Source: Conexibacter arvalis
GTDB lineage: Bacteria; Actinomycetota; Thermoleophilia; Solirubrobacterales; Solirubrobacteraceae
Assembly: GCF_014199525.1 (NCBI RefSeq)
Contig: NZ_JACHNU010000002.1
Location: 664,147-728,146 of the forward strand
Reading direction: 5' to 3'
Length of the DNA: 64,000 nucleotides
Part shown: positions 5,592 to 47,948 of the stretch, piece by piece
How positions within the stretch are numbered: position 1 is the first letter of the stretch
Layout of the letters: every line of letters begins with the position of its first letter
Program-made: the position numbers and the translations under genes
The notes under the pieces: model-generated
Databases searched by the model: none
What the model was told of the DNA's origin: nothing
Seen by the model: only the letters and a program-made list of their open reading frames with translations

Positions 5592-7799
5592 CTACGCCGC
5601 TGCCGGGACGGTGTCGCTGAACAGGTCGCCCCGCTCGGCCAGCTCGACCAGCGAGGCCGGCGGCTCGAAGCGCTCGCCGTACTTGGCGGCCAGCTCGCGG
5701 GCGCGGGCGACGAAGGCGGCGGGGCCGGTGCCGTGGGCCGGGTGCTCGTAGCCGTTGACGTACTGCAGCACGCCGCCGCTCCAGGCCGGGAAGCCGATCC
5801 CGAAGATCGAGCCGATGTTGGCGTCGGCGACCGACTCGATCACGCCCTCGTCGCGGCACTTCACGGTCTCGATCGCCTCGACGAACATCATCCGCTCCTC
5901 GAGGTCGCGGAGGTCGATCTGCGAGGGGTCGGAGACGGGCGGGAACGCCTGCGCGAGACCCTCCCAGATGCCGGTCCGTCTGCCGTCGGCGTAGGCGTAG
6001 AAGCCGCGGCCCTCGAGCTTGCCGGGACGGTCGAACTCGTCGAGCATGCGGTCGATCACGCCCTCGGAGGGGTGGCCTTCCCAGCCGGAGGCGATCGCGC
6101 CGGCGTCCTGCGCCGCCTTGCGGATCTTGCGCATCAGCTTCAGGTTCAGCTCGTCGCTGAGCTGGAGCACCGGAGCCGGGTAGCCGGCCCGCGAGGAGGC
6201 CTGCTCGATCGTCGGGGCCGGGATCCCCTCGGTCAGCATCGAGATGCCCTCGTTGATGAAGGTGCCGATCACGCGCGAGGTGAAGAAGCCGCGCGAGTCG
6301 TTGACGACGATCGGCGTCTTCTTGATCTGCTTGGCGACGTCGAGCGCGCGCCAGACCGTCTCGTCGGAGGTCGCCTCGCCCTTGATGATCTCCAGCAGCG
6401 GCATCTTGTCGACGGGGCTGAAGAAGTGCAGGCCGATGAAGTCGGCCGGCCGCGAGACGCCCTCGGCCAGCTCCGTGATCGGCAGCGTCGAGGTGTTGGA
6501 GCCCAGCAGCGCGTTCGGCGCCAGGTGGGGCTCGATCTCGGCGAAGACCTTCGCCTTCACCGCCGGATCCTCGAAGACGGCCTCGATCACGAGGTCGGCG
6601 CCGGCCGCCGCGGCCGGGTCGGTCGTCGGCGTGATCAGCGCCAGCAGCGCGTCGGCCTTCTCCTGCGTCGTCTTGCCGCGCGAGACGGCCTTCTCGCACA
6701 GTCTCAGCGAGTAGCCCTTGCCGCGGTCGGCCGCCTCCTGCGAGACGTCCTTCAGCACGACCTCGATGCCGGCCTTCGCGCAGACGTACGCGATCGCCGC
6801 GCCCATCATGCCGGCGCCGAGGACGACGGCCTTTCTGGCGCGGTAGGGCTCGACGTCGGCCGGACGGCCGCGGTCGCCGTTGACCTGCTGCAGGTCGAAG
6901 AAGAACGCCTGGATCATGTTCTTCGAGATCCGGCCGGTCGCCAGCGAGATGAAGTAGCGCCCCTCGATCTCGATCGCCGAGTCGAAGTCGACCTGCGCGC
7001 CCTCGATCGCCGCCGCCATGATCGCCGCCGGGGCCGGATAGTTGGCGCCCTTCAGCTGCTTCTTCAGGTTGGCCGGGAAGGCCGGCAGGTTCATCGCCAG
7101 CGCCGGCGTCGACGGCGTGCCGCCGGGGATCTTGTACTTCTTGTCGGCGTCCCACGGCTGCTGCGCCTCGGGATTCTCGGCGATCCACTGCTTCGCGGCC
7201 GGGATCAGCTCCTTGGGCGTCGCGACCAGCTCGTCGACGATGCCGAGCTCCTTCGCCTTGCCCGGGCGGACTCTCTGGCCCTGGAGCAGCAGGCCCATCA
7301 GCGCGCCGACGATCCCGAGCATGCGGACCGTGCGGACGACGCCGCCGGCGCCCGGCAGCAGGCCGAGCGAGACCTCGGGGAAGCCGAGCTGGATCTTGGG
7401 CGAGTCGACCGCGATCCGGTGGTGCGTGGCGAGCGCGATCTCCAGGCCGCCGCCGAGCGCGGTGCCGTTGAGGGCGGCGACGACCGGTCTGCCCAGCTGC
7501 TCCAGGCGGCGCAGCTGGCTCTTGACCTCTCTCAGGTAGGTCGCGAACTCGTCGGCGTTCTCGGGCGTGACGGCTCTCAGGTTGTTGAGGTCGCCGCCGG
7601 CGAAGAAGGTCGACTTCGCGGAGGTGAGGATGACGCCCTTGATCGAGTCCTTCTCGGCCTCGAGTCTGTCGACCGTCGCGCCCATCGAACGGGCGTAGGC
7701 CTCGTTCATCGTGTTGGCGCCCTGGTTCGGGTCGTCCAGCGTCAGGACGACGATCCCGTCGTCGCCCTTCTCCCAGCGGATCGTCGTGCTCTCACTCAT
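5592..7799 (-). CDS. fadB: fatty-acid oxidation complex alpha subunit (enoyl-CoA hydratase / 3-hydroxyacyl-CoA dehydrogenase)
   Basis: This 735-residue bifunctional enzyme handles the hydration and NAD-linked oxidation steps of beta-oxidation in the cytoplasm. The crotonase half (about 1-200) shows GTALGGGLEIALA and FPEVSLGLLPGAGG with the two active-site Glu. The dehydrogenase half (about 320-720) has the Rossmann motif VLGAGMMGAAIAY, GLHFFSPVDKMPLLEII with the catalytic His, and two C-terminal helical domains. The length is as expected for the family. The start ATG overlaps the stop of the thiolase gene by one base, so the two are co-translated and probably form one complex. A strong hairpin terminator follows. 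Confidence 0.96.
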   Translation of the reverse strand: MSESTTIRWEKGDDGIVVLTLDDPNQGANTMNEAYARSMGATVDRLEAEKDSIKGVILTSAKSTFFAGGDLNNLRAVTPENADEFATYLREVKSQLRRLEQLGRPVVAALNGTALGGGLEIALATHHRIAVDSPKIQLGFPEVSLGLLPGAGGVVRTVRMLGIVGALMGLLLQGQRVRPGKAKELGIVDELVATPKELIPAAKQWIAENPEAQQPWDADKKYKIPGGTPSTPALAMNLPAFPANLKKQLKGANYPAPAAIMAAAIEGAQVDFDSAIEIEGRYFISLATGRISKNMIQAFFFDLQQVNGDRGRPADVEPYRARKAVVLGAGMMGAAIAYVCAKAGIEVVLKDVSQEAADRGKGYSLRLCEKAVSRGKTTQEKADALLALITPTTDPAAAAGADLVIEAVFEDPAVKAKVFAEIEPHLAPNALLGSNTSTLPITELAEGVSRPADFIGLHFFSPVDKMPLLEIIKGEATSDETVWRALDVAKQIKKTPIVVNDSRGFFTSRVIGTFINEGISMLTEGIPAPTIEQASSRAGYPAPVLQLSDELNLKLMRKIRKAAQDAGAIASGWEGHPSEGVIDRMLDEFDRPGKLEGRGFYAYADGRRTGIWEGLAQAFPPVSDPSQIDLRDLEERMMFVEAIETVKCRDEGVIESVADANIGSIFGIGFPAWSGGVLQYVNGYEHPAHGTGPAAFVARARELAAKYGERFEPPASLVELAERGDLFSDTVPAAA

Positions 7800-9016
7800 C
7801 AGATCGCCTCCACGACCGTCGCGATGCCCATGCCGCCGCCGACGCAGAGCGTCGCGAGGCCGTATCTGCCGCCCGTGCGGTGCAGCTCGTCGATCAGCGT
7901 GCCAAGGATCATGCCGCCGGTCGCGCCGAGCGGATGGCCCATCGCGATCGCGCCGCCGTTGACGTTGACCTTCTCCATGTCGAGGTCCATGTCCTTGACG
8001 AAGCGCAGGACGACCGCGGCGAAGGCCTCGTTGATCTCGACGAGGTCGAGCTGGTCCTTCGTGATGCCGGCCTTCGCCAGCGCCTTCTTGGAGGCCGGCG
8101 CGGGGCCGGTCAGCATGATCGTCGGGTCGGCGCCGGAGACGGCCGTCGCGAGGATGCGGGCGCGCGGCTTCAGGCCGAGCTCCTCGCCGGTCTTCGCGTT
8201 GCCGATCGCCAGCAGCGAGGCGCCGTCGACGATGCCGGAGCTGTTGCCCGGCGTGTGGACGTGGTCGATTCTCTCGACCCAGTGGTACTTCTGCAGCGCG
8301 ACGGCGTCGAAGCCGCCCATCTCGCCCATCGCGGCGAACGACGGCTTCAGGTTGCCGAGCGTCTCGACGGTCGTGCCGGGGCGGATGAACTCGTCGTGGT
8401 CGAGCACGACGTGGTCGTTGATGTCGAGCACCGGGACGACCGACTGCTTGAAGCGGCCCTCGGCCTGCGCGGCCGCGGCGCGGTCCTGCGAGCGGACGGC
8501 GTAGGCGTCGACGTCGTCGCGGCTGAAGCCCTCGACGGTCGCGATCAGGTCGGCCGAGATCCCCTGCGGGACGAAGTCGGTCTCGAGGTTGGTGGCGGGG
8601 TCGAGCGCCCACGCGCCGCCGTCGGTGCCCATCGGGACGCGCGACATCGACTCGACGCCGCCGGCGAGGACGAGGTCCTCCCAGCCGGAGGCGACCTTCT
8701 GCGCGGCGACGTTGACCGCCTCCAGGCCCGAGGCGCAGAAGCGGTTGAGCTGGACGCCGGCGACCGTGTCCGGCAGCCCGGCCTTCAGCGCGGCGGTCTT
8801 CGCGATGTCCATCCCCTGGTCGCCGACCGGCGTGACGCAGCCGAGCACGACGTCGTCGATCCGCTTGGGATCGAAGCCGGCGTTGCGCGACAGCATCTCG
8901 TGCATCAGCCCGACGACGAGGTCGACCGGCTTGGTGGTGTGCAGGGACCCGTTGGACTTGCCCTTGCCGCGCGGCGTGCGAAGGGCGTCGAAGACGAGCG
9001 CTTCGGTGCTTGACAT
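7799..9016 (-). CDS. fadA: acetyl-CoA acyltransferase (3-ketoacyl-CoA thiolase)
   Basis: This thiolase of 405 residues cleaves 3-ketoacyl-CoA with CoA, the last step of beta-oxidation. It shows the acyl-accepting Cys in [11 protein letters not shown], the GGGVESMS-like loop ([11 protein letters not shown]), the His in [15 protein letters not shown] and the second Cys in CVGGGMGIA. The ATG at 9016 follows AGGAGA. It is the first gene of a two-gene operon with the FadB-type protein. Two dyads upstream (9079-9132) may bind the regulator, which is not encoded nearby. Confidence 0.96.
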
Positions 9017-12530: not shown

Positions 12531-13944
12531 CTACGGGCGCTTCTGCGCGATCGGCAGCCAGACGTGGAAGACGGTCCGCCCCGGTCTGGAGTCGACCGAG
12601 AGGCTGCCGCCGTGGCGGTCGGTCACGATCCGCCGCGCGACGTCGAGGCCGAGGCCGGTGCCGGAGCCGACCTCCTTCGTCGTGAAGAACGGGTCGAAGA
12701 CGCGGCTCTTGACGTCGTCGGGGATCCCGGGGCCGTCGTCGCCGACCTCGACGACGACGCAGTCGCCCTCGCGGCGGGTCGAGAGCGTGATCGTGCCGGC
12801 GTCGCCGAGCGCCTGGATCGCGTTGTGGATCAGGTTGGTCCACACCTGGTTGAGCTCCGAGCCGCGCATCTCGACCCTCGGCAGCGACCTGTCGTAGTCG
12901 CGCACGACCTCGATCGACGTGTGCTTCAGCTTGTGCTTCATCACCCTCCAGCGTCGTGTCGAGGCCCTCGTGGACGTCGGCGACGACGACCTCGCCGCGG
13001 TCCATGAACGCGTACGACTTGACGGCGCCGACCAGCTCGCTCATGCGGTCGGTCGACTCGGCCAGCTCGTCGGCGAGCGTGTGCGCCTGCAGCGAGGCGG
13101 CGACCCATCTGACGACCGCGTCGACGGCGTCGCCGGCGATCCCGGCGACCTTGCGGACCCACGCCTCGTCGGCGCCGGCGGCGACCAGCGGCTCGGCCCA
13201 CCGCCATCCCTCCGCGACGCCCAGCTCGTCGAGCAGGTCGCCGATCGCGTCCTCTGCGTCGGCGCGCTCGAGCGCGCTCAGCGGCTCCTGCTCGCGGGCC
13301 TGCTCCTGGAGCGCGTCCTTGCACGCGACGACCTTTCCCGCCTCGGCTCGGTCGACGCCGGCCTCGACCAGCTTCGCGACCATCTGCTCGTAGACCGCGA
13401 GCGTCTCGGCGAGGTCGGCCGAGGCGCGCTTGGCGGCCGCCGCCGGGTTGTTCAGCTCGTGCGCGAGCCCGGCCGCCATCGTGCCGAGCGAGGTGAGCCG
13501 CTCGCGGTTGGCCTCGCGCTCGGTGCTGCGGCGGATCACCGGCCGCATCTGGCGCATCACGCGCTCGAAGACCGGCCGCGTCCGCAGCACCAGCTCGACG
13601 AAGCGGTCGCGCGGGATCGTCGCGATCCGCCCCGGCGTCTCCGCCTCCATCCGCACCTGGTGCCAGCCGAGCGTCAGCGTCGGGATCGCGCCGACCCACG
13701 TCGGCGCGACCTGGACTCCCTCGGGCTCGACGCGGCCGTCGGCGACCGAGGAGACGCGCAGCCTGCCGGCGAGCAGCAGGTGGAGGCCGTAGCCCTCCTG
13801 CCCGGCCTCGACGACCCGCTCGCCGACCGCGACGTCGCGCACGTCGGCGGCGCCGACCCACGGCTCCAGCTGCTCGTCGCTCGCCTCGTCGAAGAGGTCG
13901 ATCGCGCGCAGGTCGGCGAGCGTGAGCGGGGTCGTTGCGGTCAT
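12531..13944 (-). pseudogene. cNMP-binding sensor histidine kinase with a one-base frameshift
   Basis: About 470 residues if repaired. Residues 1-130 form a cyclic-nucleotide-binding domain (LADLRAIDLFDEASDEQLEP). The H-box is GLAHELNNP with His162, followed by a long helical region. After the frame break the ATPase domain shows NQVWTNLIHNAIQAL (N box), VGDDGPGIP (G1) and GSGTGLGL (G2). The break is at about 12948: the coding strand reads CTGGAGGGTG, and removing one G restores T-L-R-V-M-K-H-K across the join. The open length (1414) is one more than a multiple of three. It is a genuine mutation or a sequencing error. Its ATG overlaps the stop of the upstream TrxR-like fusion (ATGA), so it is the partner kinase of that protein. 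Confidence 0.85.
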
Positions 13945-15620
13945 GCCTCGGCCAGGTACTCGTGGACGAGCGAGACCGACATCGAGCCCTCGCCGACGGC
14001 GCTCGCGACGCGCTTGACCGAGCGGGCCCGCACGTCGCCGGCGACGAAGACGCCGGGGACGTTGGTCTCCAGCAGGAACGGGTCGCGCGCCAGGCCCCAG
14101 CCGTGGTCGCGCACGTCGAGGCCGGCGAGCACGAACCCGCGCGGGTCGCGCGCGACGACGCCGTCGAGCCAGTCGGTGCGGGGCGCCGCACCGATGAAGA
14201 CGAAGCAGGCGTCGACCTCCTCGATCCACTCGGCGCCGTCGCCGGAGCGCAGCGTCAGGCGCGCGAGATGGCCGTCGTCGCCCGCGGCGGCGACCGCCTG
14301 CGTGCCGGTCCGCACCTCGACGTTCTCCAGCGCCGCGATCTGCTCGATCAAGTAGTGCGACATCGACCTCGTCAGCGACTCGCCGCGCACGAGCATCGTC
14401 ACGCGGCTGGCGTACTGGGCGAAGTGGACGGCCGCCTGCCCGGCCGAGTTCGCGCCGCCGATCACGACGACGTGCTGGTCGCGGCAGGAGCGCGCCTCCG
14501 TCAGCGCCGCGCCGTAGTAGACGCCGGCGCCGGTCAGCTCGGCGAAGCCGGGCGCGTCGAGCTGGCGGTAGGAGACGCCGGAGGCGATCAGCACGCTGGT
14601 CGCGCTCAGCTCGCCGCCGCCGGTCAGCTCGACGAAGCGGCCCGAGCCCTCGACCCGCAGCCGCGTCGCGTCCTGCATCGTCAGCAGCTCGGCGCCGAGG
14701 CGGCGGGCCTGGTCGGCGGCGCGGCGGGCGAGGTCGGAGCCCGACAGGCCCGACGGGAAGCCGAGGTAGTTCTCGATCCGGCTCGACTGGCCGGCCTGGC
14801 CGCCCGGCGCCTCGCGCTCGACCAGCGCCGTCTTCAGCCCCTCCGATGCGCCGTAGACGGCGGCCGCCAGCCCGGCCGGGCCGCCGCCGACGATCACGAG
14901 GTCGTAGTGGTCGGCGGCCGGCACGCCGACGACGCCGAGCCGCTCGGCCAGCTCCAGCACCGAGGGACGCTCGATCACGGCGCCGTCCTCCAGCAGCACG
15001 ACCGGCAGCCGGTCGGGCGCGACGTCGGCGATCGTCAACAGCTCGCGCGCCTCTCTGTCGCGCTCGACGTCGAGCCAGTTCGCCGGCACGCGGTTGCGGG
15101 CGAGGAAGTCGCGCAGGTCGTGCGACTCCTTCGAGAAGCGGTGGCCGATCACGCGCACGCCGCCGGCCTCCAGCGCGGCCCCCGACTCCCACGTCGTCAG
15201 CAGGTCCTCGAGCACCGGGTAGAGCTGCTCCTCCGGCGGGTCCCACGGCTTCATCAGGTAGTAGTCGAGCGCGACCTCGTTGATCGCCGCGATCGCCGCG
15301 TCGGTGTCGGCGTAGGCGGTCAGCAGGACGCGCTTGGCGTCGGGCACGAGCTCGCGCGCCTTCGCGAGGTACTCGGTCCCCTCCATCCCCGGCATCCGCT
15401 GGTCGGCGACCAGCAGCGCGACCTGCTCGCCGCGGGCGCGCACCTGCGCGAGCACGTCGAGCGCCTCGGCGCCCGAGGAGGTGCGCATGATCCGGTAGCG
15501 CTCGCCGAAGCCGCGGCGCAGGTCGCGCGCGACGGCCGCCAGCACGGCGGGCTCGTCGTCGACGGCGAGGATCACGGGGCGGCGCTCGGCCGCGGGTGGG
15601 GCGTCAGTCGTGGCGGCCAT
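13941..15620 (-). CDS. response regulator / thioredoxin-like / thioredoxin-reductase-like fusion protein
   Basis: This 559-residue protein has three parts. Residues 15-140 are a receiver domain with phosphoacceptor Asp73 (LLVADQRMPGMEG), the acidic pair DD at 21-22 and a Lys in YYLMKPW. Residues about 155-225 resemble a thioredoxin/glutaredoxin fold without CxxC. Residues 232-555 form an FAD/NADPH reductase with DLVIVGGGPAGLAAAV and VVIGGANSAGQAA. The redox CxxC expected before the second nucleotide motif is missing: the region reads GVYYGAALTEARSC. It therefore probably moves electrons or senses NADPH/FAD state without being a classical thioredoxin reductase. It is co-translated with a cNMP-binding histidine kinase, its likely signalling partner. 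ATG at 15620. Confidence 0.9.
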   Translation of the reverse strand: MAATTDAPPAAERRPVILAVDDEPAVLAAVARDLRRGFGERYRIMRTSSGAEALDVLAQVRARGEQVALLVADQRMPGMEGTEYLAKARELVPDAKRVLLTAYADTDAAIAAINEVALDYYLMKPWDPPEEQLYPVLEDLLTTWESGAALEAGGVRVIGHRFSKESHDLRDFLARNRVPANWLDVERDREARELLTIADVAPDRLPVVLLEDGAVIERPSVLELAERLGVVGVPAADHYDLVIVGGGPAGLAAAVYGASEGLKTALVEREAPGGQAGQSSRIENYLGFPSGLSGSDLARRAADQARRLGAELLTMQDATRLRVEGSGRFVELTGGGELSATSVLIASGVSYRQLDAPGFAELTGAGVYYGAALTEARSCRDQHVVVIGGANSAGQAAVHFAQYASRVTMLVRGESLTRSMSHYLIEQIAALENVEVRTGTQAVAAAGDDGHLARLTLRSGDGAEWIEEVDACFVFIGAAPRTDWLDGVVARDPRGFVLAGLDVRDHGWGLARDPFLLETNVPGVFVAGDVRARSVKRVASAVGEGSMSVSLVHEYLAEA

Positions 15621-30070: not shown

Positions 30071-31420
30071 CTACCCGCCGATCCCGAGCCGGTCGGGCGT
30101 CAGCGCGTGGTCGCGCTCGACCGCGTCCGCGAACGACGACGCGACGGCGGCGTCGAGCCGCTCCAGCTGCGCCTCGACCGCCGGCCGGCGCTCCTGCGGG
30201 GCCCGCTCCAGCAGGCCGAGCAGCAGCGCCCGCATCCGCCGCGGGATCTGCGGCGAGTCGGCGCCGTAGCGGCGGATCTCGGTCAGCGACAGGTCGAGCA
30301 GCTCCTCCCAGCCGGGGTTGGGGCAGATCAGCCGCACCGTCCCCTGCTCGTCGGCGAGCTGCCGGCGCTCGAGGTCGCGCCCGGCCGCCACGTTCAGCAG
30401 CTCCTCGATCCCGTCGAGCGCCTGCACGGCGGTGGTCGGGTCGTTGACCGCCGGCGACAGCGCCCGCAGCGCGAGATCGACGATCGCGCGGATCGCGAAG
30501 GCCGGATCCTGCGCGATCGTCCGCTCCTCGGCGAGCAGCGCGCTCTCGCGCAGCCGCCGCGAGTCGAGCCGCTCTGCGGGGCCGTGGATGCGGAACAGCG
30601 GCGCGCCGCGGCCGACGAAGCCGCCAATCCCGGTCGCCGCCTCGACGACGACGCCGGCGCGCGCCGCCTCGCGCACGATCGCGGCGCGGTCGAGCGCCGA
30701 CAGCACGCCAGGCCGCCCCTCGTTGCGCACGACGGCGGCGACCGGCGACGCGGGCTCGGGGACGCGCGGCGGCCCGGAGTCGTAGGGGAACGGGTAGGCC
30801 TCGCGGATCGCCTCGCCGCCGCGCTCGACGACCTGGGCGATCACGCGGCGCGGCCGCAGCAGGTCGAGCAGGCGGCTGACGAGCGCGAAGAAGGCGAGCA
30901 GCGCGGCGACCAGCAGCAGGATGTTGACGCCGACGGTGAGGCTCGGCACGACCGTCGAGCCGTCGCGGCCGACGTCGCGCAGCGAGACGAGCGCGAAGAC
31001 GGTCGGCGCCGCGAAGACGCCGAGCGCGTGCTTGACAGCAGGGTCGCGCCGGAAGCGGCCGACCAGCCGCGGCGTGTACTGGCTGGCGCCGAACGTCACG
31101 ACGACGACCGCGATCGAGACGACGAGGCCGGTGAAGGCGATCGTCCCGCTCGCGATCGAGGAGAGGATCGTGCGCGCCGTGTCGGGGTCGAGCTGGAGGT
31201 CGAGCAGGTCGCGCTCCCCCTCCAGCCGCGGGATCGCCTCCCCCAGCGCGAGCGCCGCGACGATCCACAGGCAGGGCACGAACAGGAGGCTGCGCGACAG
31301 CCGCTCGCGCAGCAGGAAGCGGCGCCGCCAGCTGGCCGACCGCTCCCTCGCGGACAGCTGCTCGTGCAGCGGCGGCGCGGCGCCGGCGCCGTCGATCGTC
31401 TCCCCCCGGCCGGTCCGCAT
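30071..31420 (-). CDS. DUF2254 membrane protein
   Basis: This 449-residue protein shows the DUF2254 pattern: a basic N-terminus, membrane segments at about 45-65, 90-115, 130-150 and 160-185, then a cytoplasmic domain of about 260 residues. SSIASGTIAFTGLVVSIAVV with TFGASQYTPRLV is the family signature, and DPTTAVQALDGIEELL lies in the soluble part. The family is widespread and of unknown function. Start at ATG 31420, with no strong ribosome site seen. Confidence 0.88.
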   Translation of the reverse strand: MRTGRGETIDGAGAAPPLHEQLSARERSASWRRRFLLRERLSRSLLFVPCLWIVAALALGEAIPRLEGERDLLDLQLDPDTARTILSSIASGTIAFTGLVVSIAVVVVTFGASQYTPRLVGRFRRDPAVKHALGVFAAPTVFALVSLRDVGRDGSTVVPSLTVGVNILLLVAALLAFFALVSRLLDLLRPRRVIAQVVERGGEAIREAYPFPYDSGPPRVPEPASPVAAVVRNEGRPGVLSALDRAAIVREAARAGVVVEAATGIGGFVGRGAPLFRIHGPAERLDSRRLRESALLAEERTIAQDPAFAIRAIVDLALRALSPAVNDPTTAVQALDGIEELLNVAAGRDLERRQLADEQGTVRLICPNPGWEELLDLSLTEIRRYGADSPQIPRRMRALLLGLLERAPQERRPAVEAQLERLDAAVASSFADAVERDHALTPDRLGIGG

Positions 31421-31458
31421 CGCCGGGATGGTGGCGGACCGGCCGGACGGCTCGACGG

Positions 31459-32970
31459 CTACGCGACCGCGAGCGGCTCGGGGCGCGGCGGCGGCGCCGG
31501 CGCGACCGCGGCGGAGAAGGCGATCCCCTCGTCCTCGAGCGGGCCGCGGCGCATCATCACGACGTCGCGCGCGTAGTTCTGGTGGAGCCGCCACGGGGCG
31601 TGCGGCCCCTGCTTGGGCAGCTGCTCGATCGAGCGCAGCACGTAGCCGGACTGGAGGTCGATGAACGGCTCGGTTCTCGCGCCGGGCGCCGGCGCGAGCG
31701 GCGTCGCGACGCGGAAGCCGTGGGCGTCCATGTGGTTGATCAGGCGGCAGACGTACTCGGCGACGAGGTCGCCCTTCAGCGTCCAGGAGGCGTTCGTGTA
31801 GCCGAGCGTGATCGCCAGGTTCGGCACGCCGCTGAACATCATGCCCTTGTAGCCGACCGTCTCGGAGAGGTCGATCTCCCTGCCGTCGATCGCGATCTCC
31901 ATCCCGCCGACGACGAGCAGGTTGAGCCCGGTCGCGGTGACGATCACGTCGGCCTCCAGCTCGCGGCCGGAGGCGAGCTTCAGCCCGCGCTCGGTGAACG
32001 TCTCGATGCGGTCGGTGACGACGGAGGCCCCGCCGCCGCGGATCGCGCGGAAGAGGTCGCCGTTGGGGACGAGGCAGAGGCGCTGGTCCCACGGGTCGTA
32101 GGTCGGCTTGAAGTGCGTGTCGACGTCGTAGCCCTCCGGCAGCTGGCGCTGCACCTGCTTGCGGATCAGCCGCTTCATCAGCCGCGGGGCGCGGCGGCTG
32201 ACCTGGAAGACGAGCGAGGAGAGCGCGACGTTCTTCCAGCGCACGATCGGATAGGCGGTCTTCGCCGGCAGCAGCCTGCGCAGGAGGTCGGCGATCGGGT
32301 CGCGCGCCGGCAGCGTCATCACGTAGCTCGGCGAGCGCTGCAGCATCGTCACGTGCTCGGCCCTGTCGGCCATCGAAGGGACGAGCGTGACGGCGGTCGC
32401 GCCGCTGCCGATCACGACGACGCGCTTGCCGCCGTAGTCGAAGCCCTCCGGCCAGTGCTGCGGGTGGACGATCTCGCCCGCGAACCGCTCGGCGCCCGGG
32501 AAGCTCGGCGTGTAGCCCTCGTCATAGCGGTAGTAGCCGGTGCAGCCGAAGAGGAAGTCGCAGGTCAGCCGGACCGTCTCGCCGGTGTCGGCGCGCTCGG
32601 CGGTCACCGTCCAGCGGGCCTCGTGGGAGGACCATTCGGCGCGCACGACGCGATGCTCGTAGCGGATCCGCTCCTCGACGCCGTGCTCGCGCGCCGTCTC
32701 GCGGATGTAGCGGAGGATCGACGGCCCGTCGGCGATCGCCTTCGCCTCCGTCCACGGCTTGAAGTTGTAGCCAAGGGTGAACATGTCGGAGTCCGAGCGG
32801 ATGCCCGGGTACTGGAAGAGGTCCCAGGTCCCGCCGCTGCTCGCGCGGGCCTCGAGGATCGCGAACGACTTGCCGGGCGAGTCGGCCATGAGATGGCAGC
32901 CGGCGCCGATGCCCGACAGGCCGGCGCCGATGATCAGCACGTCGAGATGCTCCAGCGGTTCGGTCGGCAT
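31459..32970 (-). CDS. flavin-containing monooxygenase (Baeyer-Villiger type)
   Basis: This FAD/NADPH monooxygenase of 503 residues has GAGLSG for FAD at residues 15-20, the FMO fingerprint FAGEIVHPQHW (FxGxxxHxxxW), GSGATAVTL for NADPH, and ATG followed by a C-terminal IDGREIDLSE. It resembles group I Baeyer-Villiger enzymes and actinobacterial FMOs that act on ketones or lipophilic substrates. ATG 32970 is chosen, with GGGAAAG nine bases upstream; an in-frame ATG at 32979 is possible. It lies next to DUF2254 (38 bases apart) with unrelated function. Confidence 0.92.
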   Translation of the reverse strand: MPTEPLEHLDVLIIGAGLSGIGAGCHLMADSPGKSFAILEARASSGGTWDLFQYPGIRSDSDMFTLGYNFKPWTEAKAIADGPSILRYIRETAREHGVEERIRYEHRVVRAEWSSHEARWTVTAERADTGETVRLTCDFLFGCTGYYRYDEGYTPSFPGAERFAGEIVHPQHWPEGFDYGGKRVVVIGSGATAVTLVPSMADRAEHVTMLQRSPSYVMTLPARDPIADLLRRLLPAKTAYPIVRWKNVALSSLVFQVSRRAPRLMKRLIRKQVQRQLPEGYDVDTHFKPTYDPWDQRLCLVPNGDLFRAIRGGGASVVTDRIETFTERGLKLASGRELEADVIVTATGLNLLVVGGMEIAIDGREIDLSETVGYKGMMFSGVPNLAITLGYTNASWTLKGDLVAEYVCRLINHMDAHGFRVATPLAPAPGARTEPFIDLQSGYVLRSIEQLPKQGPHAPWRLHQNYARDVVMMRRGPLEDEGIAFSAAVAPAPPPRPEPLAVA

Positions 32971-38356: not shown

Positions 38357-38366
38357 GTTCATGAAC
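38357..38366. promoter_or_regulatory. 10-bp palindrome ahead of the three-gene cassette
   Basis: GTTCATGAAC is a perfect palindrome 33-42 bases upstream of the cassette's first start codon. It is a candidate operator, perhaps for the HTH protein encoded first. Confidence 0.35.
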
Positions 38367-38398: not shown

Positions 38399-39136
38399 AT
38401 GCCGGATCAGCCCAGAGTGACACGAGATGCGCCCGCGCGTGAGGAGCACGGGCTGTTCACGCCCGCCTTCTGGGAGGCCGTCGTCACCCATCGCCTGGAG
38501 CGCGAGGGTCGTGCTGTGATGCGCGCGGTCACGCTGCTGCAGGACAGGACCGGCTGGAACGACGAGGAGATCGGCGTCCATCTCGGATGCCGGCCCGACT
38601 CGATCGCCCGGCAGCCGCGCCACGAAGCGCTCCGCCGCCTCCGCTTCAGCGCCGATTACCTCGCGTGGCTGCGCGAGCTCGCCGGCGTCATGGGCGACCC
38701 CCAGGTGACGCGCTTCCAGCGCGACATCGTCCGTTGCGCGCGCGAGCTCCACGGCGGTGCCGGCGGCGGCGACGCGGCCGACCGCCTGCGGGCGTGTCAG
38801 ATCGCCTTCCGGCAGACGGAAGGCGTCGCATGGCCCGCCGAGGACTACCTTCGCTGCGGCGAGGTCCGCCGCGCCTTCGAGGTCGCCGCGCTCAGCCTGC
38901 CCGCCGATGCGCCGGCGCATGCCGCCGCGGCTCGCGCGGCGGCTGCATCCGCGCCGCTCGCCTCCCTGCGGCCGCACGTCCACCCCGCACGCGTGCAAGC
39001 CGCATATCGAAGCGACGCGGCGACGACCCTTGGAGTCTCCGTGCGGGACGCGATCCGCGGCCACGTCGGCGGCGGCTGTCCGGTGTGCGCAGCCGCGGCG
39101 CCGCACCTCGCGACCGAGCTGAAGATCCCCGCCTGA
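38399..39136 (+). CDS. unknown protein with HTH-like helix and CxxC motif (cassette gene 1)
   Basis: I do not recognise this 245-residue protein. The N-terminal half is helical and includes DRTGWNDEEIGVHLGCRPDS near residue 49, which reads like a DNA-binding helix-turn-helix followed by RQPRHEALRRLRFSADYLAWL. The C-terminal part is Ala-rich and ends with GHVGGGCPVCAAAAPHL, a possible zinc site made of His, CPVC and His. A regulator or anti-sigma-like sensor is imaginable but not shown. It starts an apparent three-gene operon whose base and codon use differ from the neighbours. The ATG at 38399 has only a weak ribosome site. Confidence 0.7.
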   Translation: MPDQPRVTRDAPAREEHGLFTPAFWEAVVTHRLEREGRAVMRAVTLLQDRTGWNDEEIGVHLGCRPDSIARQPRHEALRRLRFSADYLAWLRELAGVMGDPQVTRFQRDIVRCARELHGGAGGGDAADRLRACQIAFRQTEGVAWPAEDYLRCGEVRRAFEVAALSLPADAPAHAAAARAAAASAPLASLRPHVHPARVQAAYRSDAATTLGVSVRDAIRGHVGGGCPVCAAAAPHLATELKIPA

Positions 39137-39145
39137 GCGGACGCG

Positions 39146-40309
39146 GTGCGCTGCATCCACATCGGCCCCGGGAAGCTGGGCCTCGGCCTCGTGGCGCAGC
39201 ACCTCATCGAGGTGCGGGCCGCCGACCTCTGCCTCGTCGGTCGACCGTTGAAGCCGGGCGTGCTCGCGGAACGAAACGCGTTCCTCCTCTCCGAGCGCGG
39301 CCCCAGTCGCCCCCAGCGGCAGATCGTCGCCAAGGCGGCGAGCAACGCGAACCGGATCGACCAGCTGCCGCAGCTCGTCAAGGGCTGGATCGCTGACGAC
39401 GCTCCCCTTCTCGTCACCTGTGCGCTGGGAGACGACGCCCCCGCCGCGGAGCCTCTCGTGCGCGAGATCGCCTCGGCGCGCGACGGTCGCGAGACCGTGC
39501 TGATCGTCTGCGAGAACAGAGCTCATCCCTGCTACGAACGCCTGGCGAACGATGGTCGGTTGACGGTCTGCCACGCAGTCGTCGATCGCGTCTGCATCGC
39601 GCCGAAGACAGCGCGGCTTCCGGATCGTCGACGTCAAGTGCTCGTGCACGCCGTCTGGGAATGGGTCGTCGAACAGGCGCCGAGCCAGCCGGAGGTGCTG
39701 CGGCAGCTCGAGTCGGGCGGCGTCCTCGTCGTCGACGACATCGCGCCGTTCCGAGAGCGCAAGCTGCTCGTCGTCAACGGGCTGCATCAGATCCTGGCGC
39801 TCAAGTGCCGGCTCCTCGGCATCGAGCACCTCGCCCTCGGCGCTCGGCATGCCGAGGTCCTCGCGGTCGCCGAGCCGTTCCTCGACGCGATCGAAGCAGC
39901 GCATCGCGCGCGATGGCCGGACTTCGCGCACGACGTGACGTACGGTCCCGAGCGCGTTCGCGTCTTCGGAGACATGCCCGACACGACCGAGCGAATCCTC
40001 GGCGATCACCTCGTTCGCGCGAACCTGACGAGCCTGCTCGATCGACTCGACGCGCGCGTCTTCGCCGGGGCGCGAACGGCTTCGGAGCACGGCTTCGACG
40101 TCGCCGTGTTCGCCGATGTGGTCGATCTCCTCATCGCGATCGTCGGCGACGGCGACCTGTACTACGAACCACCTGAGCTGCCTGCTGCCGTCGACGATCG
40201 GACCGTCGTCGAGCGCTTCGGCGCGCTGCTGCGCGGTTGGACGACGCCGCGCCAGTCCGAGCAGTTCGTCGAGCGCTTCGCGGAGGCGCTCGCCGTCACC
40301 GCCGCGTAA
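39146..40309 (+). CDS. mannitol-1-phosphate-dehydrogenase-like enzyme (cassette gene 2)
   Basis: This protein of 387 residues has the long-chain mannitol dehydrogenase fold. The N-terminus RCIHIGPGKLGLGLVAQHL matches the nucleotide motif of MtlD. VLIVCENR and CHAVVDRVCIAP align with the MtlD middle. RKLLVVNGLHQ carries the family's catalytic set Lys206, Asn211 and His214 (K-x4-N-x2-H), so it should be an active NAD-dependent polyol-phosphate or polyol dehydrogenase. Overall similarity to MtlD is low and no PTS or polyol transport genes adjoin it. GTG at 39146, nine bases after the stop of cassette gene 1. Confidence 0.78.
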   Translation: MRCIHIGPGKLGLGLVAQHLIEVRAADLCLVGRPLKPGVLAERNAFLLSERGPSRPQRQIVAKAASNANRIDQLPQLVKGWIADDAPLLVTCALGDDAPAAEPLVREIASARDGRETVLIVCENRAHPCYERLANDGRLTVCHAVVDRVCIAPKTARLPDRRRQVLVHAVWEWVVEQAPSQPEVLRQLESGGVLVVDDIAPFRERKLLVVNGLHQILALKCRLLGIEHLALGARHAEVLAVAEPFLDAIEAAHRARWPDFAHDVTYGPERVRVFGDMPDTTERILGDHLVRANLTSLLDRLDARVFAGARTASEHGFDVAVFADVVDLLIAIVGDGDLYYEPPELPAAVDDRTVVERFGALLRGWTTPRQSEQFVERFAEALAVTAA

Positions 40310-40352
40310 CCGCCCGGCCCCCGCTGGGTACATGGCACCACAACGGTGTGCG

Positions 40353-41255
40353 ATGCCGGTTCTGCTCGACGTGGATCTCGTGTCCAGCGAGGTCGACGTG
40401 GAGCGTGACATGGCCATCTCCCTGCACAGCCGCCGCGCCGAGAGAGCGCTGATGCTTCTCGAGCTCGCGCGTGAAGCGCGCGACGCGCTCGAGGTCGCCG
40501 ATCAGGAGCGACATGCCTCCGCGGCGGTTGAGCTGCTCGCCGGGAACGCCGCGACGACGAACGGCTGGTTGTACGCCTGGGCAGCCGAACTGCTGGTCGA
40601 AGCGATCGTCCACAGCGAGGGCGTCGACGCGGCGATCCGCGTCGCCGAGGACGCAGAGAGCCGACTGACGAAAGGAACGCACGCGCACGAGCGGATCCAG
40701 CGCGTCGTCCTGCAGACCGAGGCGCTGGGCGAAGACGTGCGGCTCGCCACGTGGAAGCTCCTCGACCACGCCAAGCACTTGCGCAGCGCGGGGACGAGCT
40801 TCGAGTTGGAGCGGCTGCGGACCCTCCAGCGACTGCTCGCCGCCGCGCTGCGGGGACCGCGCGACAGGCGCGCCGCGCACATAGCCGACTTCGCGCGGCG
40901 CGAGCTGATGCACCTCGCCGATCGGCTGGAGGAGCACGCCGAGCACGACGTCGCGCTCGCACGCCATTGGATCGGCGTCAGCGAGTCCGTGTTTCCCACG
41001 CCGGGCCTGCTCCCGTTCGAGTCGCAGCGCCGTGCCTCCGAGGCGCTGCGCTGGAGCTTGGAGCATCGCTACGACAGCGCCCGCGACCGTCTGACCCGTG
41101 GCATGGGAGCCGCCGAGCTGCTGCTCGTCGAGGAGCAGCGCGACGACGCGATCGAGCTCTTCGCCGAGACGGTCGACGCATTCCCCACGGTGCTTCCGCG
41201 CCATCATCGCTCTGCGGAGCGGATGCTGAGCCTGCGCGGCCTGCAGGCCGCATGA
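40353..41255 (+). CDS. all-helical protein of unknown function (cassette gene 3)
   Basis: This 300-residue protein is almost entirely predicted helix, with TPR-like spacing of Ala, Leu and Glu residues, for example RRAERALMLLELAREARDAL and NAATTNGWLYAWAAELLVEA. I do not recognise it. The charge pattern suggests a cytoplasmic protein-binding scaffold. It follows the dehydrogenase-like gene by 43 bases in the same direction. The start is ATG 40353 or ATG 40332 (seven more residues). Codons such as CGA, GAT and CAT are more common than in the surroundings. Confidence 0.7.
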   Translation: MPVLLDVDLVSSEVDVERDMAISLHSRRAERALMLLELAREARDALEVADQERHASAAVELLAGNAATTNGWLYAWAAELLVEAIVHSEGVDAAIRVAEDAESRLTKGTHAHERIQRVVLQTEALGEDVRLATWKLLDHAKHLRSAGTSFELERLRTLQRLLAAALRGPRDRRAAHIADFARRELMHLADRLEEHAEHDVALARHWIGVSESVFPTPGLLPFESQRRASEALRWSLEHRYDSARDRLTRGMGAAELLLVEEQRDDAIELFAETVDAFPTVLPRHHRSAERMLSLRGLQAA

Positions 41256-41315: not shown

Positions 41316-42176
41316 ATGTCCGCGCTCCACGTCACCAACGGGGACGTGATCGTGCCGGCCGTCGCGGCGGCGGCCGGGGTGCCGGTCGGCGACGTCGTGC
41401 CGTGGCGCGACGTGCTGCACGACGGCCCGGTCCCCGCCGGTCTCGACCCCGCCGCACTCGCGCGCGTCCGCGCCGGGCACCTCGCCGCGCGCGGCTGGAT
41501 CGACGAGGCGACGGCGCTTGCGCAGCTGGCCGAGCGCGACCGCCGGCTCGCCGACCACCCGCCCGAGGACGAGGTCGTGCTGTGGTTCGAGCCCGACCTC
41601 TACGACGCCCTCCAGCTGGCGCAGGTCTGCGACCGCCTCGCCGGGCGGCCCGGCCCGGTCACGCGCGTGCTGCTGTCGCACGCGCCGCGCGCCGACCTCC
41701 ACCCCGACTTCCTCGACCGCGAGCCGTGCACGCCGACGCGCGAGCCGTTCGCCGCCCTGCGCTCGCCCGACCCGCGCGCCTGGGAGGCCGTCCCGGCCTT
41801 CGCGCGCCTGTGCGAAGAGCTGCCGGAGGCCCGCACCGGCCTCGGCCGTCTGGAGGCGGAGATCCTCGTCGCGCTCGCCGACGGCCCGCTCGACGCGCAC
41901 GAGCTGTTCGCGCGCGTCGCGGCGCGGGAGCCGGTGCCGTGGATCGGCGACCTGCCGCTGTGGGCGCTCGCCGACGAGCTGGCGCCGCTGGTCGACGGCG
42001 CCGTCTCCCCCGACCGCCCGCCCCGCTACGCGCTCACCGCCGCCGGCGAGGAGGTGCGGGCCGGCCGCGCGCGCCGGCCGACGCCCGAGCGCTGGATCGG
42101 CGGCGTCCAGCTCGGTCCCGGCCGCCCCGCATGGGCCTGGGACGCCGAGGCGCGCAGGGTCGTGCGGCTCGACTGA
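41316..42176 (+). CDS. DUF1835-domain protein
   Basis: This 286-residue protein starts with the DUF1835 pattern MSALHVTNGDVIVPAV and DVVPWRDVLHDGPVP, then ADHPPEDEVVLWFEPDLYDAL and a C-terminal winged-helix-like part (LVDGAVSPDRPPRYALTAAG) that ends with family-typical WIGGVQLG. Function of the family is unknown; some members are joined to DUF3658. GC content returns to the window's norm here, marking the end of the unusual cassette. Confidence 0.85.
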   Translation: MSALHVTNGDVIVPAVAAAAGVPVGDVVPWRDVLHDGPVPAGLDPAALARVRAGHLAARGWIDEATALAQLAERDRRLADHPPEDEVVLWFEPDLYDALQLAQVCDRLAGRPGPVTRVLLSHAPRADLHPDFLDREPCTPTREPFAALRSPDPRAWEAVPAFARLCEELPEARTGLGRLEAEILVALADGPLDAHELFARVAAREPVPWIGDLPLWALADELAPLVDGAVSPDRPPRYALTAAGEEVRAGRARRPTPERWIGGVQLGPGRPAWAWDAEARRVVRLD

Positions 42177-47162: not shown

Positions 47163-47948
47163 TCAGCCGGCGAGCTCGTCGAGCGTCCGGCCGCTGAGGA
47201 CCGACTCCGGGCGCTCGGCGACGACGTCGGAGCCGGGGCGGGCGTCGCCGTCGCGGCGCTTGACCAGCAGCCACTGCTGGCGGCCCGATCTGTCGGCGCG
47301 GGTGCGCTGGAGCGCGAAGCCGCCGCGCAGCTTCTCGCCGTGGAGCACGAAGACGGCGTGGCCGCGCGCGAGCGCCTCCGGCCACGGGACGCGGCCGCCC
47401 TGCTCGTAGCCGCCGCGGTCCCAGACGATCGCGTGGCCGTCGCCGAGCGGCCCCTCGGCCTCGTCGCCGTCGAGCGGGTGGTCGGGGACCTCGATCGCCA
47501 TCCGCTTCGCCGCCGGGTCGAGCGACGGCCCCTTCGGCAGCGCCCACGAGCGCATCACGCCGTCGACCTCCAGCCGCAGGTCCCAGTGGCGCGATCTCGC
47601 CTGGTGCTCCTTCACGACGAAGCGGCCGGCGACGACGCCGCGGATCGCGAACTGCTCGTGGCCCTCGGCTCTGACGGCGTCGGCGGCGACGTCGTCGACG
47701 CGGGCGCCGGGCGGCCCTTCGCGCAGGAAGCCGAGCAGCCGCTCGACCGCCTCGGCGGGCCCCTCGGCGTGGACGAGCACCGTCGCGCCGTCGTCGTCGC
47801 CCGCGACCGGGCGACGGACCCAGCCGAGCACGCCCAGCTCGCGCGCCCGCGCGACGGTCGCGTCGCGGAAGCCGACCTCCTGCACCTGCCCGCGCACGGT
47901 CGCGCGGACCGCGCGCTCCGGCTTCGCTCTGCGCGCCGTCGCGCCCAT
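47163..47948 (-). CDS. acylphosphatase-like / LigD 3'-phosphoesterase fusion
   Basis: This 261-residue protein joins two known folds. Residues 12-100 match acylphosphatase (VRGQVQEVGFRDATVARARE, then GWVRR). The catalytic Arg of VGFR is kept, but the usual Asn of GWVRN is Arg here, so acylphosphatase activity is doubtful. Residues 103-240 match the 3'-phosphoesterase domain of bacterial LigD (FVVKEHQARSRHWDLRLEVD, SWALPKGPS, VWDRGGYEQ), with the metal-binding His and Asp residues in place. The role may be 3'-end cleaning in DNA repair, with the first domain used for binding. No Ku or ligase gene is in the window. Confidence 0.88.
   Translation of the reverse strand: MGATARRAKPERAVRATVRGQVQEVGFRDATVARARELGVLGWVRRPVAGDDDGATVLVHAEGPAEAVERLLGFLREGPPGARVDDVAADAVRAEGHEQFAIRGVVAGRFVVKEHQARSRHWDLRLEVDGVMRSWALPKGPSLDPAAKRMAIEVPDHPLDGDEAEGPLGDGHAIVWDRGGYEQGGRVPWPEALARGHAVFVLHGEKLRGGFALQRTRADRSGRQQWLLVKRRDGDARPGSDVVAERPESVLSGRTLDELAG

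Follow-up and report, generated by a model that had tools for sequence, protein, structure and literature searches.

The window, by which we mean the whole stretch of 64,000 nucleotides analysed here, carries a tandem cassette of three genes behind a short palindrome:

38357..38366, unstranded, perfect 10-bp palindrome GTTCATGAAC, 32 nt upstream of gene 1
38399..39136, + strand, gene 1, 245 aa, predicted helical protein with a C-terminal ZAS-like zinc motif
39146..40309, + strand, gene 2, GTG start, 387 aa, probable divergent MtlD-type polyol-specific long-chain dehydrogenase
40353..41255, + strand, gene 3, 300 aa, orphan, predicted all-helical

Genes 1 and 2 are separated by 9 nt and genes 2 and 3 by 43 nt. 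The latter gap shrinks to 22 nt if gene 3 starts at the alternative in-frame ATG at 40332, which gives a protein of 307 aa. The order GC3>GC1>GC2 is found in the annotated frame of all three genes and is absent from the antisense and shifted frames; since the pattern is confined to these frames, it supports taking genes 1-3 as real genes rather than long antisense ORFs. Coordinates, codon-position GC and the location of GTTCATGAAC thus agree with the initial annotation, which had described three tandem ORFs with gaps of 9 and 43 bases behind a palindrome. The palindrome is single-copy in 464 kb of host genome (the 64-kb window plus 400 kb sampled) and is a possible operator of gene 1.

Sequence composition and synteny

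A foreign-looking composition, with CGA, GAT and CAT codons commoner than in the flanks, had also been proposed, and this is borne out to a modest degree. Genes 1, 2 and 3 have GC contents of 0.744, 0.695 and 0.704. Their GC3 values (0.861, 0.855 and 0.877) lie below the genome mean of 0.939, at the 8th, 7th and 12th percentiles of 221 sampled genes, a comparison set that was picked by a simple GC3 rule and includes some wrong-frame ORFs; the composition sample was 400 kb of the host genome. Codon adaptation (CAI) places the cassette genes at about the 12th percentile. Per 1000 codons the cassette has 8-21 CGA, 10-21 GAT and 10-17 CAT, against 5.5, 5.3 and 3.0 in the comparison genes. Its composition is therefore only moderately atypical, and other genes of the window equal it. 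These lie at 5592-8612, 12919-14355 and 30071-32092, with GC3 of 0.82-0.85 and raised CGA, GAT and CAT, and the window may contain several acquired islets.

Upstream of the cassette lies the peptide deformylase gene def (Pfam E 4e-40), which is kept in relatives. One congener, G004, retains the divergent HTH_17 gene/def pair and has another gene 3' of def. Searches of the six other genomes of the genus brought up none of genes 1-3. The gene that follows the cassette (41316-42176, + strand) has neither a Pfam match nor a match in 12 relatives, the latter in a search without a positive control, and because of this the lineage-specific block may reach beyond the cassette. That the cassette sits in what looks like such a block follows from these three observations: the lack of matches in congeners, the different def neighbourhood in G004 and the unmatched 3' gene. 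No tRNA or Rfam element was found in the window. Elsewhere in it, the ORF at 47163-47948 (- strand) matches an acylphosphatase domain and a LigD 3'-phosphoesterase domain, an unusual fusion of two small domains.

Gene 2 and its relative in a second genome

As judged from its sequence, gene 2 probably encodes an active, divergent member of the polyol-specific long-chain dehydrogenase (MtlD-type) family. The matches to Pfam Mannitol_dh_C (E 5e-4) and NCBIfam MtlD (E 3e-8) both fall far below the cut-offs; for MtlD the score is 33 bits against a curated 356 (MtlD model cut-offs are >350). A profile built from gene 2 and its one relative retrieves the MtlD crystal structures 5jnm and 3h2z. The Rossmann glycine motif for NAD(P), GPGKLGLG at residue 7, is intact. 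The signature of polyol-specific long-chain dehydrogenases is KxxxxNxxH (PMC4022671); it is intact in gene 2 as KLLVVNGLH at residues 206-214 (K206-x4-N211-x2-H214) and is also present in the relative and in E. coli MtlD. The reading of an MtlD-type enzyme with intact catalytic Lys, Asn and His thus holds, with K206, N211 and H214 as these residues.

In-depth searches covered Actinobacteriota-type relatives of the host genome. For gene 2 they comprised 61 relatives, 396 phylum genomes and 399 class genomes, in partly overlapping draws, and returned one close relative beyond the host (32% identity over 190 aa, E 2e-14). Class matches with E 1e-7 to 1e-9 were mostly frames of 424-563 aa and were taken as ordinary polyol dehydrogenases. 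The close relative lies in G038 (MAG nzgw111, JAHEXU010000069.1), which belongs to the same order as the host and to another family. Its convergent neighbour, 4 nt away, encodes a protein that is similar to gene 1 along most of its length. The adjacency of genes 1 and 2 is thus seen in two genomes, in tandem in the host and convergently in G038. As the second genome is from another family, this recurrence supports, for these two genes, the earlier proposal of a module over mere chance proximity. The G038 dehydrogenase (L005:5579-6774) is frameshifted near L005:5731-5734, and its two frames were joined as one row for searches only. It is possibly a pseudogene or the product of an assembly error, the latter because its contig has 3.1x coverage. 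Since the orientation differs and the G038 gene is frameshifted, co-transcription is not a conserved feature of the pair.

A contig scan of all phyla recovered the known G038 locus only; because its peptide patterns were narrow, the scan is no proof of absence elsewhere. No match to genes 1-3 came from viral contigs, phages or plasmids, and we found no pair of the gene 1/gene 2 type in the literature. The pair is rare in these searches and was probably acquired horizontally.

The gene 1 family and its partners

No family of Pfam, NCBIfam, PHROGs or PADLOC corresponds to gene 1. Because its likeness to the G038 protein had first been spotted through adjacency, we ran a profile test that excluded the window. 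A profile made from three distant G038 homologues alone ranks gene 1 first among 3,498 host ORFs, with E 2.4e-8 (next 0.14). By this homology gene 1 belongs to a small protein family with four members known here. Two apparent matches of gene 1 were rejected, one in G728, whose frame is that of a kinase and contains a stop, and one in G583, whose frame is apparently wrong. An HMG-CoA lyase identity (NCBIfam E 0.06, and a match in G015) was likewise discarded as chance; the G015 match falls inside a true HMG-CoA lyase ORF and is confined to the Ala-rich C-terminal stretch.

All four members end in H-x26/28-H-x3/4-C-x2-C, and the four presumed ligands are invariant in the alignment (n=4). In gene 1 the motif is H193-x28-H222-x4-C227-x2-C230, at the C-terminus. 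TxW...LGC is also conserved in the family, and there are weak signs of a TPR-like stretch. ZAS anti-sigma factors carry H/C-x24/25-H-x3-C-x2-C, in which all of these residues are zinc ligands (PMC6432622, PMC2877774). The motif is therefore suggestive of a ZAS-like zinc site in gene 1 that is likely oxidation-sensitive. The best matches of the family's C-terminal profile outside the family were an RskA-like ORF adjoining an ECF sigma gene, at a weak E of 0.009, and a zf-HC2 ORF at 0.11, in an ORF set that had been enriched for RskA-like and zf-HC2-type ORFs. The Pfam zf-HC2 HMM itself gave no match to gene 1 and E 0.34 with one homologue. The description of gene 1 as an HTH/CxxC protein stands in part: the CxxC is real and lies inside the longer His/Cys motif, whereas the HTH is unproven, with no HTH family matching gene 1. 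Since AlphaFold gave models of low quality (pLDDT 51 and 54) and Foldseek returned nothing below E 0.7, we limit the predicted fold to 'helical'.

Two further gene-1 homologues stand in tandem on a second contig of G038 (pair-profile E 5e-10 and 2e-8), each with a DUF2204/DUF6036 nucleotidyltransferase gene exactly 10 nt downstream:

L047:5514-8352 (G038:C169), tandem gene-1 homologue + nucleotidyltransferase duplication, 10-nt gaps in both copies, near-identical junctions

The 10-nt gap resembles the 9-nt gap between genes 1 and 2 in the window. As the tandem pairs are probably one duplication, at most three independent pairings of the gene 1 family with an enzyme are represented. In two actinobacterial plasmids, distant relatives of these nucleotidyltransferases are located after an annotated HTH regulator gene, and on this account the gene-1 homologues hold a regulator-like position. 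Since the G038 homologues pair with a dehydrogenase and with nucleotidyltransferases, the gene 1 family is, as far as homology goes, the constant partner, while the enzyme varies.

Gene 3 behaves differently. Searches of 61 relatives, 296 genomes of the phylum, plasmids, phages, the PDB and two G038 stretches brought up no homologue, and 36 kb of G038 contained no gene-3-like ORF. The three-gene module of the initial annotation is thus unsupported as far as gene 3 is concerned, because it has no detectable relatives or co-occurrence in the genomes searched. Its membership rests on the 43-nt gap only. The protein is helical in a poor AlphaFold model, and gene 3 is most simply viewed as a co-transcribed passenger or a lineage-specific helical accessory.

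Discussion

Our preferred reading, which we hold tentatively (probability roughly 0.42), is that genes 1 and 2 make up a two-gene module that is rare and was probably acquired horizontally. In it a zinc-binding controller, gene 1, would govern gene 2, an active NAD(P)-dependent polyol(-phosphate) dehydrogenase. Gene 1 would bind zinc through its ZAS-like site, and in place of a sigma factor it would bind the product of its neighbour, or the promoter of that operon. Oxidation of the zinc cysteines, or loss of gene 1, would then release the enzyme to act, as the ZAS proteins and MenAT suggest by analogy, and the freed gene 2 enzyme would alter the balance of sugar alcohols and of NAD(P)H. In favour of a module, relatives of gene 2 occur in two genomes and adjoin a gene 1 family member in each; the window-free homology test, the 10-nt nucleotidyltransferase pairs, the HHCC motif at near-ZAS spacing in 4/4 members and the intact KxxxxNxxH point in the same direction. 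Acquisition is favoured by the lack of matches in six congeners, the atypical codon use and the change of synteny after def in one congener. Against the module it counts that the dehydrogenase pair is found in two genomes only, in differing orientations and with a frameshift in G038, that the nucleotidyltransferase pairs are probably one duplication, and that the profile shows no more than a weak likeness to ZAS proteins (E 0.009, from an enriched set).

A more far-reaching version, which we regard as rather improbable, would see here a two-gene stress or conflict module of a new kind, in which a ZAS-like zinc sensor detached from sigma factors is combined with interchangeable enzymes, either a nucleotidyltransferase or a polyol dehydrogenase as metabolic effector. 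The nucleotidyltransferase partners of the gene-1 homologues lend slight support to the defence or signalling role suggested earlier, but no PADLOC model matches genes 1-3, the gene-1 homologues or the nucleotidyltransferases.

The main rival is a small operon with a specialised catabolic or osmolyte role, in which gene 2 is an ordinary divergent dehydrogenase for mannitol-1-phosphate or another polyol, and gene 1 a local substrate or redox regulator with no part in conflict. The intact catalytic signature and the MtlD resemblance of gene 2 speak for it. However, transport and kinase genes are not adjacent, the distribution is very sparse, and the nucleotidyltransferases paired with gene-1 homologues show no evident link to polyols; we consider this operon unlikely, although it is the strongest of the alternatives.

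Less probable again is a toxin-antitoxin or abortive-infection module after the manner of MenAT and AbiE, in which the enzyme, nucleotidyltransferase or dehydrogenase, would harm the cell and gene 1 would be the antitoxin. Such a module would account for a controller gene directly 5' of a nucleotidyltransferase gene at short distance and in tandem copies, and for a cassette that is sporadic, atypical and lineage-specific. MenA antitoxins come from different protein families, and varied antitoxins accompany the nucleotidyltransferase (PMC10435456). Against this, PADLOC gave no match, a dehydrogenase would be an unusual toxin, and most antitoxins are smaller than gene 1.

It is very unlikely that gene 1 acts as a ZAS anti-sigma factor on a sigma factor encoded elsewhere, with the enzyme neighbours as regulon targets. 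The HHCC motif at near-ZAS spacing and the RskA-like ORF beside an ECF sigma gene as best non-family match speak for it, but the gene 1 motif is C-terminal, after about 190 residues, while that of RslA is N-terminal (His25-Cys57; PMC2877774), and no sigma gene was seen adjoining any of the four family members. That genes 1-3 are unrelated chance neighbours in a variable region, as the lack of relatives of gene 3 and the unconserved orientation of genes 1 and 2 might suggest, is the least credible reading, since a genome of another family also has genes 1 and 2 next to each other.

What sets the gene 1 family apart is a ZAS-like zinc motif adjoining enzymes instead of sigma factors. If gene 1 does control its neighbour, as in the two-gene module that we prefer, redox-switch zinc domains would not be confined to transcription but would also control an enzyme directly, and one type of controller would serve two unrelated enzymes.

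Three known systems invite comparison. With MtlD of E. coli, gene 2 has in common its length, the glycine motif, CEN, VDR, EW and K-x4-N-x2-H; it differs in its identity of only about 23%, in scoring only 33 bits with MtlD models, and in its neighbourhood, which has a zinc-motif protein as partner and neither mtlA nor mtlR. In the ZAS anti-sigma factors (RslA, ChrR, RsrA) the motif H/C-x24/25-H-x3-C-x2-C comes close to the H-x26/28-H-x3/4-C-x2-C of the gene 1 family, whereas the gene 1 motif is C-terminal and slightly longer in spacing, with no adjacent sigma gene and no zf-HC2 match. The MenAT and AbiE toxin-antitoxin systems resemble the G038 pairs in that a gene-1 homologue stands directly 5' of a nucleotidyltransferase gene. 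In contrast to these systems, however, the G038 nucleotidyltransferases match DUF2204/DUF6036 and not DUF1814, and the enzyme partner in the window is a dehydrogenase.
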